Positions 25,639 to 60,455 of a stretch of DNA of 64,000 nucleotides are shown here, piece after piece. Numbering within the stretch: position 1 is the stretch's first letter; the number at the start of each line of letters is the position of its first letter. A program made the translations under genes and the position numbers. The stretch lies in contig NZ_BONV01000003.1 in assembly GCF_016862895.1 (NCBI RefSeq), positions 248,001 to 312,000 on the forward strand, read 5' to 3'. The DNA is from Planotetraspora kaengkrachanensis (GTDB lineage: Bacteria > Actinomycetota > Actinomycetes > Streptosporangiales > Streptosporangiaceae). The notes under the pieces are model-generated. The model had not been told where the DNA came from. It saw nothing but the letters and a program-made list of their open reading frames with translations, and did no database searches.

Positions 25639-28600
25639 ATGAGCCCGGTCACGTTCCGGGTCCTCGGCCCGGTCGAGGCGGGCGACGACGCCGGCCACAT
25701 CGACCTCGGCGGCCTGCGACAGCGTGCGGTCCTCGCCCGCCTGCTCGTCGCCCGGGGCCAGGTCGTCCCCGTGGACACGCTGCTCTTCGACCTGTGGGAC
25801 GACGACGCCCCCAAGGGAGCGCAGTCGGGACTGCAGGTCTACATCTCGCGCCTGCGCCGCGTGCTTGAGCCGAACCGCCCGCGCGGCGGGCCGAACCGAC
25901 TGCTGGTGACGGTGGCCTCCGGGTACGCCCTGCGCGCGGCGGCCGAGCAGGTCGACGCGCTGCGCTTCGAGGCGGTCGTCCGCTCGGCCGGGGAGTGGCT
26001 GGAGGACGACCCCGCCTCGGCCAGGGCCAGGCTCGATTCCGCCCTGGCGCTGTGGCAGGGCACGCCGTACTCCGGTTTCGCCGACCAGCCGTGGGCGGAA
26101 GCGGAGGTCGCCCGGCTGAGCGAGCTGCGGCTCGTGGCCCGCGAACGGCACGCGGACGCGGGGCTGCGGATGGGCCTGCACGCCGAGACCGTGCCCGACC
26201 TCGAGGCGATGACCACCGAGCACGCCCTGCGCGAGGAGGGCTGGCGGCTGCTGGCGCTCGGGCTCTACCGGTGCGGACGGCAGGGTGACGCGCTGGCCGC
26301 GATCCGCAGGGCCCGCGGGATCCTGTCGGACGAGCTCGGCATCGACCCCGGCCCGGCGCTGCGGAAGCTGGAGTCCGGCATCCTGTCGCAGGATCCCGCG
26401 CTCGACCTCGCCGTCCCCGCGACCCGCCGGACCACGGAGGTCGCCGGGAGCTGGCCGCCGCGGTCGTTCGAGGCGGTGGATCTGCCGCCGCTGGAGGCCG
26501 AGCCCTTCGTCGGCCGTGACGGCGAGCTGGCCGCGCTGCGGGCCGCGGCGCCACGTGCCGCGGCCGGCCGGTTCACGGTCGCCGTCGTCAACGGGGACCC
26601 CGGCGCGGGCAAGACCACGCTGGTGCGCCAGTTGTCCGGCCTGCTGGAGGAGGGGAACTGGATCACGGCCGGCGGCGGCTGCCCGGACAGCAGCGCGACA
26701 CCCCCCGGCTGGGCGTGGGTCGAGGTGCTGCGCGGGCTCGTCGCACGGCGGGGTGCCGGCGAGTACGCCGCCCTGCTGGCGCCGCTGCTCGACGACGCCG
26801 CGCCGGACACGGGCGACGACGAGGCGTCCGGCGGATTCCGCCTGCACCGGGCGGTCGGCGGCTACCTGTCCGCGGTCGCCCGCGATGCGCCGCTGCTGAT
26901 CGTCCTTGAGGACCTGCACTGGGCCGACGACCAGACGCTTGCGCTGCTGCGCGCGCTGCCGAGCCTGCTTGCCGCCAGCCGGGTGCTGATGATCGTGACC
27001 TGCCGCGACGGCGAGCTGAACGACCAGCAGCAGGACGTGCTCGCGGCGCTGGCCAGGCTCGGCCCCGTGCGGGTGGGCCTCGACGGGCTCGACGACGCGT
27101 CGGTGGCCGAACTGGTCAGGGCGACCTGTGTGCGCGACGTCGACGACGACGTCGTCTCCACGATCGTCGGACGGGCCGGCGGCAACCCCTTCTTCGTCAA
27201 GGAGACGGTCCGCCTGTTCGAGGCCGAGGCCGACATCTCCGAGGTGCCCTCCGGGGTCCGCGACATCCTGCGCAGGAGGATCGCCCGGCTGCCCGAGCGG
27301 GCGCAGCAGGTGCTGCTCCAGGCGGCGGTGATCGGACGCGACGTCGACGTGGACGTGCTGGTCGACGTGTCGGGCGACGAGGACGCGGTGGTGGACGCCG
27401 TCGAGGCCGCCCTGCTCGCCGGGCTCGTCACCGAGCCGGGTGCCGGCCTGCTCCGCTTCGACCACGACCTCGTCAGGGACACCCTCTACTCCGACGCCTC
27501 GCGGCTGCGCAGATCACGGCTGCACGCGGCGGTGGCGTCCGTGATCGAGCGGCGCAACCCGGGCGACGTGGCCGCGCTGGCCCACCATTACGACGCCGCG
27601 GGCACCGCGGACACCGCCGCCAAGGCCGGGTGGTACGCCGGGCTCGCCGCGGAGCAGGCCGAGCGTCGTTTCGCGCATCGCGAGGCGGCGTCGTTGTGGC
27701 AGCAGGCCGTCGCCGCACTCGACCGCGCCCACGGCGGGAACGGCCCCGTCAGGGAGCGGTTGGAGCTTCAGCTCAGGCACATCAGGGCGCTGGCCCTGTG
27801 CGGCGACATGACCGCCGCGCGCGGCCTGCGGCGGGAGGCCATGAACGTCGCCCTCCCGCTCGGCGACATGGAGCTGACGGCGCGGATCGCGGCCGCCCTC
27901 GCCGTGCCGCACAAGGGCATCGCCCGCGATTTCACCAGGACCGCCTGGGAGATCGTCGACGTCACCGAGAAGGCCCTCGTCGAACTGCCCGAGGGCGAGC
28001 AGTCGTTGCGGGCCAGCCTGCTGGCCACGCTGGCGCTCGAACTCGAGGGCTCCGCCACCCAGCGGGGCTACCAGGCGTCGCTGGAGGCGGAGGAACTGGC
28101 CCGGTCGAGCGGTGACCCGGCCCTGCTCGCGGTGGCGCTCAGCGGCAGGCTGCGCCAGTCCTACACGATGACCCAGGTCGACGAGCGGGAGACGATCGGC
28201 CGCGAACTCCTCCGGGTCGGCGTGGAGTCGGGACAGATCGCGGTCCGGGCGCTGGCCCACCTCGTGCTGCTCGAGTGCGCCTCGGCCCGCGGCGACTTCG
28301 CCGAGGCAGACGATCACCTGGCGGAGGCGGAGTCGCTCGGCCGCCGGTACGATCTGCCGGCTCCGGCCGCCGTCGGCGCCTGGTACGCGGGGCAGCGTCT
28401 GATGATCACAGGCGACTACGCCGAAGCCGAGCGCGCCTACCGCAACGCGGCCAGGCTGACGGCTCGGGCGGGCATGCTGGAGGGCCGGCAGGACCTGCCG
28501 CTGATCGCGACCTTCTGCCTGCACCTGGTCGACGGCCGTGCCGCCGAGATGGCCGAACCGCTGGCCGAGGCGCACCAGCGTGGCGCCAAATGGACGCTCG

Positions 28601-28971
28601 ACGCCTACGCCGTGGCACTCGCGTCCGCGGGCCACCGGAGGGATGCGCAGGTGATCGCCGCCGGGCGGGAGCCGGTGCGCACGGACTTCCTCTACGAACT
28701 CGCCCTCATCTGGCGGGCGCTCGCCGGGATGCTGCTCGACGACGCCGACCGGATGAAGGAGGCCTACGAGAAGCTCGTGCCGTTCCGCGACCGCATCGCC
28801 GGGGCGGGAACCGGGGTGGTCGCCCTCTGGCCGGTGTCCCGGACCCTCGGCGATCTCGCCGTACGGCTCGGCCTGCCCGCCCGCGAGCACTACGAGACGG
28901 CGCTGGGGGTGGCGGAACGGGTCGGCGTGCCCCGCTGGATCGGCGAGGCCCGCCAGTCACTCGCCACCTGA
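25639..28971 (+). CDS. large BTAD/AAA transcriptional regulator (SARP-related)
   Basis: A 1110-residue regulator. Residues 1-95 form an OmpR-like winged helix (FRVLGPVEAGDDAGHIDLGG, LQVYISRLRRVLEP); residues about 100-250 form the bacterial transcriptional activation domain; an NTPase domain follows with Walker A GDPGAGKTTL near 319 and Walker B LLIVLEDLHWAD near 420, then an alpha-helical TPR-like C-terminus to the end. No terminal LuxR-type HTH is seen. Such proteins switch on antibiotic or developmental genes, but no biosynthetic cluster adjoins. The ATG at 25639 fits the domain start. The 3' end runs into a repeat array. Confidence 0.9.
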   Translation: MSPVTFRVLGPVEAGDDAGHIDLGGLRQRAVLARLLVARGQVVPVDTLLFDLWDDDAPKGAQSGLQVYISRLRRVLEPNRPRGGPNRLLVTVASGYALRAAAEQVDALRFEAVVRSAGEWLEDDPASARARLDSALALWQGTPYSGFADQPWAEAEVARLSELRLVARERHADAGLRMGLHAETVPDLEAMTTEHALREEGWRLLALGLYRCGRQGDALAAIRRARGILSDELGIDPGPALRKLESGILSQDPALDLAVPATRRTTEVAGSWPPRSFEAVDLPPLEAEPFVGRDGELAALRAAAPRAAAGRFTVAVVNGDPGAGKTTLVRQLSGLLEEGNWITAGGGCPDSSATPPGWAWVEVLRGLVARRGAGEYAALLAPLLDDAAPDTGDDEASGGFRLHRAVGGYLSAVARDAPLLIVLEDLHWADDQTLALLRALPSLLAASRVLMIVTCRDGELNDQQQDVLAALARLGPVRVGLDGLDDASVAELVRATCVRDVDDDVVSTIVGRAGGNPFFVKETVRLFEAEADISEVPSGVRDILRRRIARLPERAQQVLLQAAVIGRDVDVDVLVDVSGDEDAVVDAVEAALLAGLVTEPGAGLLRFDHDLVRDTLYSDASRLRRSRLHAAVASVIERRNPGDVAALAHHYDAAGTADTAAKAGWYAGLAAEQAERRFAHREAASLWQQAVAALDRAHGGNGPVRERLELQLRHIRALALCGDMTAARGLRREAMNVALPLGDMELTARIAAALAVPHKGIARDFTRTAWEIVDVTEKALVELPEGEQSLRASLLATLALELEGSATQRGYQASLEAEELARSSGDPALLAVALSGRLRQSYTMTQVDERETIGRELLRVGVESGQIAVRALAHLVLLECASARGDFAEADDHLAEAESLGRRYDLPAPAAVGAWYAGQRLMITGDYAEAERAYRNAARLTARAGMLEGRQDLPLIATFCLHLVDGRAAEMAEPLAEAHQRGAKWTLDAYAVALASAGHRRDAQVIAAGREPVRTDFLYELALIWRALAGMLLDDADRMKEAYEKLVPFRDRIAGAGTGVVALWPVSRTLGDLAVRLGLPAREHYETALGVAERVGVPRWIGEARQSLAT

Positions 28972-28975
28972 TCTC

Positions 28976-29346
28976 GTGATCATGCACAAGTTCGGCGAAG
29001 GAGCCGTCGACGTGCACCAACCCCGGTCCGTGATCATGCACGGATTCGGGCACTTGTCGAATGACCTGGCCAAACGTGGGCGTGATCATGCACGCTTTCG
29101 GAGATCGGGCCGTCGACCTCGGCCGATAACGACCGTGATCATGCAGCGGCGGGCTCGTTGCATGATCACGCAGTGCGTACGCCCTGGTGGTGGGGTGATT
29201 CCCCGAATCCGCGCGTGATCACGAAATCGGGATCCGCAGGTCAGGGGCCTTTCGCCGAATTCATGCATGATCACGGCGGGGGGGTTGGGCTTGCTGGTGG
29301 GCCCTTCGCAGAATCTGAGCATGATCACCAAAAAGCTGTGATCACA
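28976..29346. repeat. 53-bp-periodic inverted array of GTGATCATGCAC elements
   Basis: Four forward copies of GTGATCATGCACNNNTTCGG start at 28976, 29030, 29082 and 29135 (the fourth diverges after GTGATCATGCA). Four reverse-complement copies end at 29169, 29222, 29274 and 29328, with a short palindrome TGTGATCACA at 29337-29346. Spacing is 52-54 bp throughout. The two arms face each other around 29150, filling the gap between two convergent genes. A related three-copy array lies at 55483-55600. No gene was seen inside. Confidence 0.85.
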
Positions 29347-29349
29347 CGG

Positions 29350-29979
29350 TCAGCAGGTGACCTGGAACGCCGCGCTCTCGTAGGTGCGCGAGCCGACGTC
29401 GAGCCGCACGCGGTAACGGCCGGGATTCCCGCCGATCCGGGGGCGCCACTCGACGGCGCGCGGGCCTCCGGTGAAACCGCTCCTGCTGGCGAAGTACGGC
29501 TGCCACCCGCGGGTCGAGGAGTTCCAGCGCACGACCTGCCACGCGTACGAGACGCCGGAGCCCGCGGGGTCGATCATCGTCCGCACCCGGTACGTCCGCT
29601 CGCAGTCCGCGCCGCCGGGCATCGCGGTCACCACCACCCTGCCGGGCGCGGGAGCCACCTGCTGCGCCGTATCCGCCGTTGTATCCGCCGCCACGTCGGT
29701 CTGCGTCAGGTCCGGCGTCCCGGTCTCGTCGGCGCGGGTCGTCAGGGTCATCACGCGGGTGGGCCGGTCCGCGAAGGCCCCTGTCGTGGACGATCCCGTC
29801 GACGTGGCCGCGGAGCCCGAGGGAGTCATCGACGAGAGCGCCGGGACTCCTGCGGGTTCCGCCTGGGACGCCTGCGCCCCCACGTAGGCGCCGGCCACCG
29901 CCATGGTGGCGACCAGCAGCTTCGCCATGTTCGCGGCGCCGCTCACCACGATCGGCATCGCACTGCTTCGCGGACTCAT
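29350..29979 (-). CDS. secreted protein, beta-sandwich-like, unknown function
   Basis: A 209-residue exported protein. The N-terminal segment MSPRSSAMPIVVSGAANMAK followed by LLVATMAVAGAYVGAQA looks like a signal peptide or anchor. A Ser/Thr/Ala-rich spacer reaches to about residue 105. The C-terminal 95 residues contain two cysteines (GADCERTYRV and the final FQVTC) and beta-strand patterns RVRTMIDPAGSGVSYAWQVV and GRYRVRLDVGSRTYES, resembling an extracellular Ig or coagulation-type beta-sandwich. I do not recognise the family. Its stop lies 3 bp from the repeat array. Confidence 0.7.
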   Translation of the reverse strand: MSPRSSAMPIVVSGAANMAKLLVATMAVAGAYVGAQASQAEPAGVPALSSMTPSGSAATSTGSSTTGAFADRPTRVMTLTTRADETGTPDLTQTDVAADTTADTAQQVAPAPGRVVVTAMPGGADCERTYRVRTMIDPAGSGVSYAWQVVRWNSSTRGWQPYFASRSGFTGGPRAVEWRPRIGGNPGRYRVRLDVGSRTYESAAFQVTC

Positions 29980-54859: not shown

Positions 54860-55486
54860 ATGGAAGAGCTTCGCCGGCAGCTGTGCGACTACGGCAGGCG
54901 GGCCGCGGAGCTGGGCCTGGTCATCGGGACCTCCGGCAACCTCAGCGCCAGGGACGGCGACTTCGTCGCGGTCACTCCCTCCGGCGTCGCGCTCGACCGT
55001 CTGCGCCCCGAGGACTGCCCGATCGTCCGGCTCGACGGAACCATAGTGGAGGGCGAACTGCCCCCGTCGTCCGAGACCCCGATGCACCTGGCCGTCTACG
55101 CCGCGACGGGGACGACGGCGGTCGTGCACACCCACTCGGTCTTCGGTGCCGTGGTGGCCACGACCATGACGGAGTTGCCCCCGATCCACTACAACTCCCT
55201 TCTGCTCGGCGGCAGCGTCCGCGTCGCCGAGTACGCGACGTACGGCACGCCCGAACTCGCCGCCAAGGTCCAGGAGGCGCTGACGGGCAAGCAGGCGGCG
55301 CTGATGGCCAACCACGGCGGCGTCACGATCGGAGCCGGTCTGGAGAAGGCCTTCGAGGCCACCCGCCTGCTCGAGTGGCTCTGCGAGGTGTACGTCCGCG
55401 CCCTCGGGGTCGGCACGCCCACCGTGCTGACCGAGGAGCAGCTCGCCGACGTCATCGTCCGGGCCTTCACCCCACCCCCGGCGTGA
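54860..55486 (+). CDS. class II aldolase/adducin-family protein (FucA-like)
   Basis: A 208-residue zinc aldolase-fold protein. It has GTSGNLSARDGDFVAVTPSG (phosphate-binding region), the zinc ligands in AVVHTHSVFG (HxH), ETPMHLAVYAATGTTA with the catalytic Glu, and MANHGGVTIGAGLEKAFEAT with the third histidine. It should cleave a sugar phosphate such as fuculose- or ribulose-phosphate, or act as a decarboxylase. The gene is divergent from ngcEFG, with a DasR-like site in its promoter, suggesting amino-sugar control. The stop TGA is within the first unit of a repeat array. Confidence 0.88.
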   Translation: MEELRRQLCDYGRRAAELGLVIGTSGNLSARDGDFVAVTPSGVALDRLRPEDCPIVRLDGTIVEGELPPSSETPMHLAVYAATGTTAVVHTHSVFGAVVATTMTELPPIHYNSLLLGGSVRVAEYATYGTPELAAKVQEALTGKQAALMANHGGVTIGAGLEKAFEATRLLEWLCEVYVRALGVGTPTVLTEEQLADVIVRAFTPPPA

Positions 55487-55600
55487 TCATGCACAGGTTC
55501 GGCAAAACCCCGCTCCACCTGCGCCGCCACTAGGCGTGATCATGCGCAGGCTCGGCGGAACCCCGCCCCACCTGCGCAGACGCTCACCGTGATCATGCAC
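55483..55600. repeat. second GTGATCATGCAC array, three copies at 53-bp spacing
   Basis: Copies start at 55483, 55536 and 55589, exactly 53 bp apart. The first two continue with AGGTTCGGCAAAACCCC and AGGCTCGGCGGAACCCC, so units also share sequence beyond the core. The first core includes the aldolase stop codon and the third ends 6 bp before the DUF885 stop, so the array fills the gap between two convergent genes, as does the array at 28976. Confidence 0.85.
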
Positions 55601-55605
55601 GAGCG

Positions 55606-57183
55606 CTACGCCGGAATGACCGCCTTCCTGGCCAGCCCGAGCGGCAGGCCTCCCGACCCCGCGATCGCGTCGTGGAACGACCGCAGGTCGCCGCGGTAGT
55701 CGTCCCTGATCCGCTCGATCTCCAGAGCACCTGTCAGGTACGAGGGCGCCTGGGTCGGCCACGCGCAGTACCTGCCGACCTCCCCCACCGCCGTGCCGGG
55801 CGAGAGCGAGGCCTTGGTGGTCATGAACGTTTCGGCCTCCTCGATCGTCATGTCGCCGCAGTGCAGCGCCGTGTCCACGACGATCCGCGCGGCGCGGAAG
55901 ATCCGGCAGTCCAGGTGGGCCAGCTCGGTCTGCGGCGTGTCGAAGTACCCCTGCTCGTGCATCACCTTCTCGACGTAGAGCGCCCAGCCCTCGACGAAGT
56001 ACGGCGTGCGGAATATCTTGCGCGCCTTCCTCGGGCTGCCGGCCATCCACGCCAGGTGCCAGTGGTGTCCGGGATAGGCCTCGTGGACGGCGATCGACGG
56101 CATCTGGGCCCGGGAGTTGGTCCTCAGGCGCTGCCGTACCTGCTCCTCGGTGAAACCGTCCGGCGTGAACGGGACGAAGAAGACGCCCGCCCTCGACGTC
56201 GTGAGCGGCGGCGGCGCGAGGTAGTTGGCCACCGCGATGAGGGGACGCTGGAACTCCGGGGACGGCAGGACCCGGCAGTCCTCCCCCTCGGGGAAGGTGA
56301 CCAGCCCGCGGTCGCGGGCGAAGTCGCGTGCACGGAAGGTCTCGGCCTCGTACTCGGCGCGCATCGCCTCCAGCGTGGGCGGGTGGTCGTCCATGAGCGT
56401 CTCCATGGCGGCCCGCCAGTCGGAGGAGCCGAGTCGCCCGGCCACCTCGCGCATCCGCCCGTCGAGCTCGTCCCAGGACTTGAGCCCCTTCTCGTGCAGT
56501 TCGGAGGCGCCGTACCCGAGCATCTCCCGCTCCCGCAGCAGGGTCGAGTAGAGCTCCTCTCCCATCCGCCAGGTCCCGCCGGCCTTGAAGCCGTCGAGGA
56601 ACGTGACGAAGTCGTCGAACGCCTCGGCGGCGGGCCCGGCGGCGTTGGCCAGACGGGCGCGCAGGTTCTCGTCCGCCACTCCCGCCGGCAGGGTCGCGGT
56701 GAGGAAGTGCCGCGCCGTACGGGCCTGATCCAGACCACGGCGGACGAGCAGGTCGGACGCGAGACCGGGATCGAGGTTCTCGCGGCACGCGGCGAGCACA
56801 CCGGGGACGTCGGCGAGCCGTGCGACGGCCGCGTCGACGAGGTCGGCCTCCGGGGCGAGCCGCTGCTGGAACGGGGTGAACATCGACGCGAAGATCGCGT
56901 TGAGGTACGGCGCGGGATCGCGCCGCCACTCCGGCCGGCGGGCCTGGGCGACCGCGCCGCGCAGGTGCGAGAGCACGAGGTCGCGGTCGATCTCGTCGTC
57001 GAGGGAGGCGGGGGCGTATCCCGCCAGCCGCCGCAGCCACTCCTCCTCGGCTCGTTCCCTGGCCGTGAACCCCGCCTCGGTGAAGTCGCCCAGAGTGCGG
57101 TCGTGGCCGCCGGCGCCGAGAAGCGTCGCGCTGATCGGATGCTCGGCCAGATACCAGTCGAGAAAGTCGTCCACCAGTGTCAT
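55606..57183 (-). CDS. DUF885-family metallopeptidase-like protein
   Basis: A 525-residue, mostly alpha-helical protein. The DUF885 zinc signature is HEAYPGHHWHLAWM (HExxxGHH-like) near residue 360, with the later EGWALYVEKVMHEQGYFD that supplies the third ligand glutamate. No signal peptide is visible, so it is probably cytoplasmic. Members are related to M32/M3-type carboxypeptidases, but substrates are not known. The ATG at 57183 is chosen because homologues start near MTLVDDFLDWYLAEHP. It is divergent from the DUF4032 gene. Confidence 0.88.
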   Translation of the reverse strand: MTLVDDFLDWYLAEHPISATLLGAGGHDRTLGDFTEAGFTARERAEEEWLRRLAGYAPASLDDEIDRDLVLSHLRGAVAQARRPEWRRDPAPYLNAIFASMFTPFQQRLAPEADLVDAAVARLADVPGVLAACRENLDPGLASDLLVRRGLDQARTARHFLTATLPAGVADENLRARLANAAGPAAEAFDDFVTFLDGFKAGGTWRMGEELYSTLLREREMLGYGASELHEKGLKSWDELDGRMREVAGRLGSSDWRAAMETLMDDHPPTLEAMRAEYEAETFRARDFARDRGLVTFPEGEDCRVLPSPEFQRPLIAVANYLAPPPLTTSRAGVFFVPFTPDGFTEEQVRQRLRTNSRAQMPSIAVHEAYPGHHWHLAWMAGSPRKARKIFRTPYFVEGWALYVEKVMHEQGYFDTPQTELAHLDCRIFRAARIVVDTALHCGDMTIEEAETFMTTKASLSPGTAVGEVGRYCAWPTQAPSYLTGALEIERIRDDYRGDLRSFHDAIAGSGGLPLGLARKAVIPA

Positions 57184-59630: not shown

Positions 59631-60455
59631 ATGGCCCCCACCACCCTCGACACCGTCCTGACCCGGCTCGCGGCCGACAACGCCACCGGCTCCCTGCGCG
59701 TCGGCAAGGACGGGACCGTCTACCTCACCGGCGGACGGGTGTCGTACGTCGAGTGCACGACCACCCCGGGAGTCGAGGAACTGCTCACGACCTCCGGCCG
59801 GATCAGCGCCTCCGGGGTCCGCGGGATACGGCAGGCGGCGGGGCCCGAGGCCGACGGGGGCGACCTCCTCATCGAGAAGGGCGTGCTCAGCCGGGGCGAG
59901 CTGGAGTTCTGCGTGCTGGGGGCGACCCTGGACGCGTCGTTCTTCCTGCTGCGGCCGGCGGGGACGCCCAGGTCCAGGTTCAAGGAGGGGGACACCCACT
60001 GGCTCGGGACGCACTGGTACTTCGACGTCCCCGGCCTGTTCCGCGAGTGCGAGCGCAGGTCGGCCCGGCTCGAGCGGGCCTGGCCGTCCGCGGAGCTCGA
60101 CGGTGAGGCCGTCGTCCCCGTGGGGCGCCTCAACGGCGGGCACGTGCTCCTCACCGCACCCCAGTGGGAGCTGGTTCTCGCCGCGGACTCCACGGCCACC
60201 CCGCTCGATCTGGCCCGCCGCCTCGGGCGTCCGGCCTACTCGACCCTGCTCGCCGTACGGGAACTCGCCGCGGCCGGACTGCTCGCCACGCACGCGGCGT
60301 CCGGGCCGGACACTGCAGACGTTCCGGCGGCACTGCCGAAGCGGACCCCCGCGGCGCAGTCCGGGGACGCGTCGGAGCGGACGCACCCACCGCAGGCGGA
60401 CGCCGCCGACGTGAACCTGCTCATCAGGCTGCGTGACGCCCTGGAGGCGCTGTAG
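59631..60455 (+). CDS. DUF4388-like (PATAN) regulator-type protein
   Basis: A 274-residue protein. The N-terminal TLDTVLTRLAADNATGSLRV with GTVYLTGGRVSYVECT matches the DUF4388/PATAN pattern, a beta-rich domain often combined with roadblock or response regulators. A middle domain is rich in aromatic residues (GDTHWLGTHWYFDVPGLF), then a winged-helix-like part (ADSTATPLDLARRLGRPAYS, TLLAVRELAAAGLL) and a Pro/Ala-rich linker before a short helix. It follows the first roadblock gene by 3 nt, so the cluster is an operon. Function inferred only from context. Confidence 0.72.
   Translation: MAPTTLDTVLTRLAADNATGSLRVGKDGTVYLTGGRVSYVECTTTPGVEELLTTSGRISASGVRGIRQAAGPEADGGDLLIEKGVLSRGELEFCVLGATLDASFFLLRPAGTPRSRFKEGDTHWLGTHWYFDVPGLFRECERRSARLERAWPSAELDGEAVVPVGRLNGGHVLLTAPQWELVLAADSTATPLDLARRLGRPAYSTLLAVRELAAAGLLATHAASGPDTADVPAALPKRTPAAQSGDASERTHPPQADAADVNLLIRLRDALEAL

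Follow-up and report, generated by a model that had tools for sequence, protein, structure and literature searches.

The gap between two convergent genes in the analyzed stretch of Planotetraspora kaengkrachanensis DNA (64,000 nucleotides, hereafter the window) is filled by two facing arms of a short repeat set at a pitch close to 53 bp, and the same arrangement recurs throughout the genome and, with altered letters, in other genera of the family. We consider the chances to be somewhat better than even that these arrays are double-stranded, helically phased binding lattices for a putative lineage-specific DNA-binding protein at gene ends. Their architecture appears to be new, within the broad class of dispersed extragenic repeats, and a search of the open-licence PMC literature found nothing on such arrays in this family; the 12-mer core itself turned up in two papers, one of them PMC5839063, which is discussed below.

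The forward arm in the window (28976 to 29146, plus strand) comprises four cores of the form GTGATCATGCAC/G, starting at 28976, 29030, 29082 and 29135, i.e. at steps of 54, 52 and 53 bp. The reverse arm (29158 to 29328, minus strand) mirrors this spacing with four cores at 29158, 29211, 29263 and 29317 (steps of 53, 52 and 54); read from the outside to the inside both arms run 54-52-53. All these cores differ from GTGATCATGCAC by zero to two mismatches. At the center (29135 to 29169) the innermost facing cores have a start offset of 23 bp, which is found again in other arrays, and form the palindrome GTGATCATGCAG-N11-TTGCATGATCAC. When the window sequence is placed on the unit logo described below, a second element, box B (consensus CYGACCTGC, at +31 to +39 of the unit), is seen on the plus strand in forward units 1 (29007 to 29015, TCGACGTGC), 2 (29061 to 29069, ATGACCTGG) and 3 (29113 to 29121, TCGACCTCG). 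The outermost units of the two arms have 59% of positions 12-52 in common. Immediately beyond the reverse arm, and only 2 bp away from the stop of the minus-strand gene, is a degenerate core-like sequence, GTGATCACAC (29338 to 29347), which was not counted as a unit.

The array occupies the whole gap between the convergent stops at 28971 and 29350. The left gene (25639 to 28971, plus strand; start from our own gene caller, domains from Pfam) codes for a regulator with BTAD, AAA and Trans_reg_C domains and stops 4 bp ahead of the first core, while the right gene (29350 to 29958, minus strand; start likewise from our caller) codes for a protein of 202 aa with no Pfam match at E 0.001 and stops 21 bp from the last core. 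A second array (55483 to 55600, plus strand), not mentioned in the original prediction, has three forward cores, at 55483, 55536 and 55589, 53 bp apart. The TGA stop codon of a class II aldolase gene (54860 to 55486, plus strand) lies inside its first core, and a gene for a DUF885 protein (55606 to 57183, minus strand) faces it; the starts of both genes are from our own caller and the domains from a Pfam search that took in four window proteins. An Rfam scan of the window detected only a tRNA. Altogether 19 matches to the 12-mer with at most two mismatches were found in the window, eight in the main array and three in the second, against a mean of 3.7 and a largest value of 10 in 100 shuffles. 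The original prediction, of four forward and four reverse cores at 52-54 bp, facing each other between convergent genes with a regularity beyond chance, is borne out in the window.

Exact matches to GTGATCATGCAC number 652 over the 8.77 Mb genome, 320 of them in forward and 332 in reverse orientation. The reversed pattern has no copy there; this control contains CTAG, a tetranucleotide that is rare in such genomes, and the rest of the phylum is a better control. Exact 53-bp pairs of the 10-base core (GTGATCATGC-N43-GTGATCATGC) number 531 (255 and 276 on the two strands) in this genome, with no match in the 395 others of the 396 genomes searched. In a contig scan from which records of the window's own genome were possibly excluded, four exact cores at 53 bp were recovered from 73 stretches, all of them from Planotetraspora (mira, silvatica, phitsanulokensis and sp. 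A-T 1434). The density is uneven, with 73 exact 12-mers on contig C1 (606 kb) and three in 280 kb of contig C2.

When gaps of 25-120 bp to the next core were collected from the window's genome (G000; C1 and part of C3) and a relative with common loci (G003; C1), 143 of the 169 pooled gaps were exactly 53 bp and nine were 52 or 54 bp, and 11 of the other 17 fell at 25-35 bp; named loci chosen for four exact cores entered this and the spacer analysis as a side count only. In another genus (G501) 77 of the 78 steps within arms are 53 bp and one is 52 bp, whereas in the genome G477 the pitch is looser (53 bp in 29/40 steps, 52 bp in 9/40), the arm finder in both cases admitting only cores partnered at 52-54 bp and so weighing 53 against 52 and 54 alone. 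These 52-bp steps, like the 54-52-53 series of the window itself, count against the binding-lattice reading. Random spacing elsewhere in the genome, which the original prediction had named as evidence against itself, is not what was found, the 53-bp spacing being genome-wide.

A unit logo built from the 135 of 140 collected units with at most one mismatch consists of GTGATCATGCACaggTTCGG, a variable stretch and a box approximating CYGACCTGC at +31 to +39; conservation is weaker at +44/45 and +47, and +52 is a C. Because box B and these weaker letters are conserved within it, the spacer is not free, and the earlier claim that the stretch between cores is unrelated from unit to unit needs correction to that extent. 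By arithmetic from the logo, the centers of core and box B are separated by about 30 bp, and a further 22 bp or so lead from box B to the following core, distances close to three and two helical turns. The two-box unit is present in Planotetraspora and in the genera g288 and g319. The letters kept over three equally weighted groups (Planotetraspora with G477, G501 of g288, and G601 of g319) are GTGATC-W-TG-Y-A, TCG at +16 to +18 and approximately ACCTG at +34 to +38. The core letters vary from carrier to carrier: GTGATCATGCAC..TTCGG in G000 and G003, GTGATCATGCAG..TTCGG in G001, ..TTCCCG in G477, GTGATCTTGC..CTCGCA in G501 and GTGATCTTGTAG..GTCGCA in G601. In G601 the two innermost cores abut to form a 24-bp palindrome or nearly so (L226, 10416-10545; L231, 10284-10414), and the outer cores of g319 arrays have another tail (GTAGTTTGTCGC), so that position within the arm may matter in this genus.

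To describe placement we classified 83 elements from six sampled genomes, with genes called by our own script rather than from curated annotation, such that individual orientations may be wrong. Eighty elements lie in convergent or tandem gaps and two in divergent gaps. Facing pairs account for 47 elements (24 in convergent gaps, 22 in tandem gaps and one in a divergent gap), and the 36 single arms comprise 25 in sense orientation, 10 in antisense orientation (one of these in a divergent gap) and one two-core element inside a called gene. Relative to background gaps, counted only if at least 60 bp long and with elements at the edges of the fetched stretches omitted, divergent gaps are avoided (2/83 elements versus 249/917 gaps) and convergent gaps enriched (34/83 versus 160/917). 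The median distance to a gene 3' end is 19 nt for facing (n=70) and 26 nt for single elements (n=44), with some up to 1680 nt, and 16 of the 114 distances equal -4, i.e. the stop codon is inside the core; for gene 5' ends the corresponding median distances are larger, 90 nt (facing) and 117 nt (single). In G000 only five of 140 cores lie inside called genes, each isolated and with one mismatch, and together with the two-core element above this is far from the scatter inside genes that had been named as contrary evidence. No back-to-back arms within 1.5 kb of each other were seen in the six genomes. In G501, 35 of 43 arms have three cores. The inner offsets of facing arms in this genome cluster at 12, 18 and 23 bp, which means that facing arms do not sit at one helical phase, a further point against the binding-lattice reading; in G601 the offset is 12 bp in all four cases, a 24-bp palindrome. 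The genes flanking arrays have no functional theme apparent by eye, and we rejected the idea that distant facing arms enclose cargo, as the enclosed genes look by eye like ordinary metabolic genes.

A scan of 297 family genomes with the pattern GTGATCNNG-N44-GTGATCNNG found at least eight pairs in 13 of them and zero to two in the others. The counts are 579, 661, 690, 154 and 650 in five g1 genomes, 438 in G477, 214 in G501, 47 in G452, and 160, 53, 50, 41 and 8 in five of the 15 g319 genomes. The lattice is therefore kept in relatives, where its absence would have spoken against the original prediction, and an element confined to one genus was rejected, since the same lattice occurs with other core letters in other genera of the family. 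A three-core search over 394 genomes of the class, in a draw that left out most other carriers and with a pattern that would miss cores other than GTGATCNNG, matched only G000 and G535, with none in the 353 class genomes from outside the family. A tree of ThiI proteins was built for 47 genomes (G640 was left out of the 48 rows). All 13 carriers belong to a single well-supported group of 26 rows, of which the other half are non-carriers; it takes five changes to explain the carrier pattern, and 500 shuffles never came down to that number, though a one-gene tree does not settle the number of gains and losses. At one locus, called the xdh type here, arrays follow a gene that by eye resembles one for a xanthine dehydrogenase subunit of the 2Fe-2S-binding kind, and they do so in three genera: L339 2377-2494 and 5039-5156 in G608, L268 from 7688 in G501, and position 273181 of C1 in G000. 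In G608 and G501 the arrays lie on both sides of an amidohydrolase-like gene (by eye). Among G501 array genes with a counterpart, the counterpart also has an array in 1/5 (G000) and 1/2 (G003) cases, versus 3/32 and 1/16 for G501 genes without one; for G601 the corresponding values are 0/2 and 0/2, versus 2/13 and 1/13. Few array positions are common to different genera, though the counterpart numbers for G501 and G601 are too small to be decisive. G456 is without lattice pairs but has one core (GTGATCATGCAGACGCTC) 36 nt downstream of ribH, counted from the stop (L170), possibly a relic or a precursor.

At the loci examined, several near relatives have no arrays, or contracted or decayed ones. 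G582 and G625, about 92-95% identical to G608 over aligned parts, are without the xdh-locus arrays of the latter: the place of the first is filled by other sequence (205-253 bp), and that of the second in G582 aligns with a core-like mutated sequence that looks decayed. Likewise G002, whose ThiI gene is 97% identical to that of G000, retains only a few cores at the adjoining array and has 154 pairs genome-wide against 579 in G000. Near-lattice matches number 21 in G614, only two of them exact, as opposed to 56 in G608, of which 50 have zero or one mismatch; one match in G569 looks like an orthologue of a mutated G614 array. The g319 genomes free of arrays show no excess of near matches (0-7 in ten of them versus 2-6 in nine lattice-free genomes of other genera), and a decay reading would rest on the single loci and the G614 population. 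We read these losses as suggesting that maintenance depends on something that can itself be lost, though other causes are possible.

Hundreds of copies, patchily spread within one clade and with lineage-specific cores, raise the possibility that the arrays are a REP-type dispersed selfish repeat, whose enzyme would copy or amplify 53-bp units, with arrays persisting chiefly beside gene 3' ends since insertions at other places do harm. Such an element would also account for whole units being gained and lost, for the avoidance of divergent gaps, for the arrays at stop codons and for the small number of positions common to different genera. We nevertheless regard it as unlikely. All five unit pairs with a spacer similarity of at least 0.75 among 83 G000 units are within one array, with no spacers common to different loci in the sampled contigs, and each of the 12 G000 arrays in the part of C1 common to G003 has a counterpart there; this tells against the mobile repeat of the original prediction in the sense of recent copying. 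Moreover, the Y1 transposase domain of REP systems (PF01797, Y1_Tnp) occurs in carriers as well as in non-carriers (13 of 23 genomes in all) and is absent from seven of the 13 carriers examined (G000, G002, G003, G004, G477, G601 and G630). Neither viral contigs, searched for the exact two-core pattern, nor a plasmid collection gave a match. In the excerpted descriptions of PMC2817692 and PMC3733652, REP, BIME and REPIN elements occur in more than 100 copies per genome, at extragenic sites, with regular spacing, facing units and lineage-specific sequence, and in all these respects, as in lying near gene ends, the arrays resemble them. Yet the arrays differ in having no stem-loop or imperfect palindrome as their unit (the window core contains only a 6-bp palindrome), in the absence from the unit logo of the GTAG or CGTC tag described in that part of PMC3733652, and in the missing cognate transposase. 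They are also distinct from MITEs and transposon ends, whose copies are alike including the spacers, as the mean spacer similarity among G000 units is about 0.39, the level of unrelated units. A target-site duplication or clean empty site would mark such elements; where G608 has its xdh-locus arrays, G582 and G625 have other sequence in the first gap, and G582 has decayed-looking sequence in the second, which leaves room for either view. The conservation of box B within the spacers also distinguishes the arrays from CRISPR arrays, in which spacers have no common internal sequence.

The position shortly downstream of stop codons, at a median of 19-26 nt, and the enrichment in convergent gaps could instead point to an RNA-level 3' UTR element or unusual terminator, with the transcribed arms acting as repeated pause or Rho-loading sites and facing arms serving convergent genes; within the second half of the unit, the sense strand has more C than G. 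This too appears improbable, and slightly more so than selfish spread, for the antisense arms, which comprise 10 of the 35 single arms in gaps (a strict 3'-UTR rule was rejected on this count) as well as one of the two arms in every tandem facing element (22 in number), are conserved equally. In tandem gaps sense and antisense arms have like scores for the core (115 and 98 cores, p 0.49) and for box B (76 and 62 units, p 0.82), both scored with matrices built from the same units. No base-pair covariation between unit positions was detected over 128 distinct units. A logo-suggested hairpin pairing AGGTTCGG with CCGACCT was rejected for this reason and because it is not kept between genera, the pairing segment changing while box B stays. 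Stops followed by arrays show no hairpin excess either, the median z being -0.17 at 23 array ends, compared with -0.49 for 48 convergent and -1.06 for 60 tandem ends that have no array; by this measure, which covers hairpins only, the arrays do not resemble intrinsic terminators. Finally, at the xdh-type locus of G000, G501 and G608 and at ribH in G477 so little DNA separates the array from the following co-directional gene that by eye there is no room for a promoter, which disfavors a strong terminator; at ribH in G000 about 130 nt separate array and next gene. The transcription barrier of the original prediction may or may not be among the roles of the arrays. Equal conservation of the arms, the lack of covariation and the lack of a hairpin excess together favor recognition of double-stranded DNA.

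The comparison of G000 with G003 bears on whether the pitch is under constraint or is a by-product of recombination, namely tandem 53-bp duplications spread by unequal exchange and now neutral. The two genomes are about 92% identical in coding DNA and 80% at four-fold sites, and G003 has one array more (at 60118), in a non-collinear stretch. Over 50 order-matched units, which were picked as 53-mers, identity is 0.955 at positions 0-11, 0.77 in box B and about 0.56 in the spacers (0.26 to 0.96 in single units), so that spacers diverge more quickly than four-fold sites. The likely reason is that whole units are exchanged, gained and lost, as the 53-bp steps of the alignments indicate. Outside arrays there are 0.135 indels per substitution, from which 44% of units would be expected to keep their length at neutral divergence and 17% at the observed spacer divergence. 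As the order-matched set was preselected as 53-mers, the case for a length constraint rests on the gap distribution above, where the length is kept despite the divergence of the spacers. Against the lattice, spacer divergence beyond that of neutral sites points to unit exchange, and part of the regularity could therefore stem from duplication of 53-bp units, one pair of which is identical. The by-product reading is favored by unit numbers that differ in steps of 53 and by some near-identical neighbors. Units of the same rank in facing arms are more alike than those of different rank in G000 (0.465 vs 0.373, compared without a significance test) and also in G003; this and the mirrored 54-52-53 steps of the window hint at copying from arm to arm. 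An inversion of the array center was considered and rejected, as cross-arm comparison gave no clear swap. A purely neutral by-product is very improbable and largely refuted by conservation amid divergent spacers: neutral arrays would lose their pitch through indels and would not hold core and box B while spacers randomize, and the cores agree between loci although the spacers do not. Least probable of all is a binder related to the arginine repressor ArgR, suggested by an exact 12-mer inside the 20-nt ARG box listed for Streptomyces coelicolor SCO5864 among fragments bound by ArgR (PMC5839063, in the table excerpted), for a genome this large is estimated to contain any such 12-mer at random roughly once or less often and the match is perhaps chance, the table notes no differential transcription for SCO5864, and the ARG boxes in the excerpted part are single, contiguous or one nucleotide apart (ten in one case), not 53 bp.

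Under the favored reading of a binding lattice, the window array would be one of hundreds of double-stranded sites whose 53-bp unit spans about five helical turns, each unit presenting the core GTGATC(A/T)TG(C/T)A with its lineage-specific tail and the box near CYGACCTGC on roughly the same helix face. We propose that a lineage-specific protein binds one unit each from one face and contacts its neighbor one unit on, stacking head to tail along the arm. Selection would keep pitch and orientation while the DNA between drifts or is exchanged, and where two arms face each other the complex filling the gap beside the gene ends would be symmetric. Such stacking would explain the pitch, the orientation of the arms and the drifting letters between the boxes. 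The helical-phase protein site of the original prediction accords with the predominance of 53-bp gaps, the maintained unit length and the equal conservation of sense and antisense arms. As for purpose, we tentatively prefer a boundary or topological anchor at gene ends to transcription termination because both orientations matter and the gaps beside 3' ends are used.

Among known systems the phasing and orientation of the arrays would fit a cooperative direct-repeat binding array. The closest mechanistic model may be BldC of Streptomyces, a regulator that, according to the excerpted text of PMC5859096, forms head-to-tail oligomers on direct repeats, so that direct-repeat arrays in actinobacteria would be common to both; BldC sites vary in length in that account, whereas the present arrays number in the hundreds, lie at gene ends and have a 53-bp pitch. 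The TAACTGA intergenic direct repeats of Beggiatoaceae, as excerpted from PMC4679880, likewise form many sets across the genome, with their function left open there, and represent another repeat in another phylum. The MIRU elements of mycobacteria are intergenic, situated at stop codons and have a unit near 53 bp in some loci, but they conserve the whole unit, unlike the present arrays, which conserve two boxes only. In eukaryotic rDNA, repeated polar terminator sites are bound by TTF-I; these are directional protein sites repeated downstream of genes, like the putative sites described here, which differ in being bacterial and genome-wide and in having facing arms, and for which termination would be only a candidate role.

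More speculatively, and with rather less than even confidence, the arrays may represent a new chromosome system, in which a predicted protein polymerizes on DNA at a five-turn pitch, occupies facing pairs of arms at the ends of hundreds of genes, and provides a boundary for transcription or topology or an anchor for chromosome folding. Its recognition letters would have shifted across the sites between lineages, and the system would have been lost more than once, with decay of the sites. If the core letters have shifted over the sites of a lineage, this would strongly exemplify the co-evolution of a protein with the sites it binds. The differences between near relatives (G000 and G002; G608 versus G582 and G625) could make the search for the protein a comparison of gene content. 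The combination of pitch, facing arms and placement at gene ends offers a natural means of studying the marking of transcription units or the organization of DNA in bacteria.
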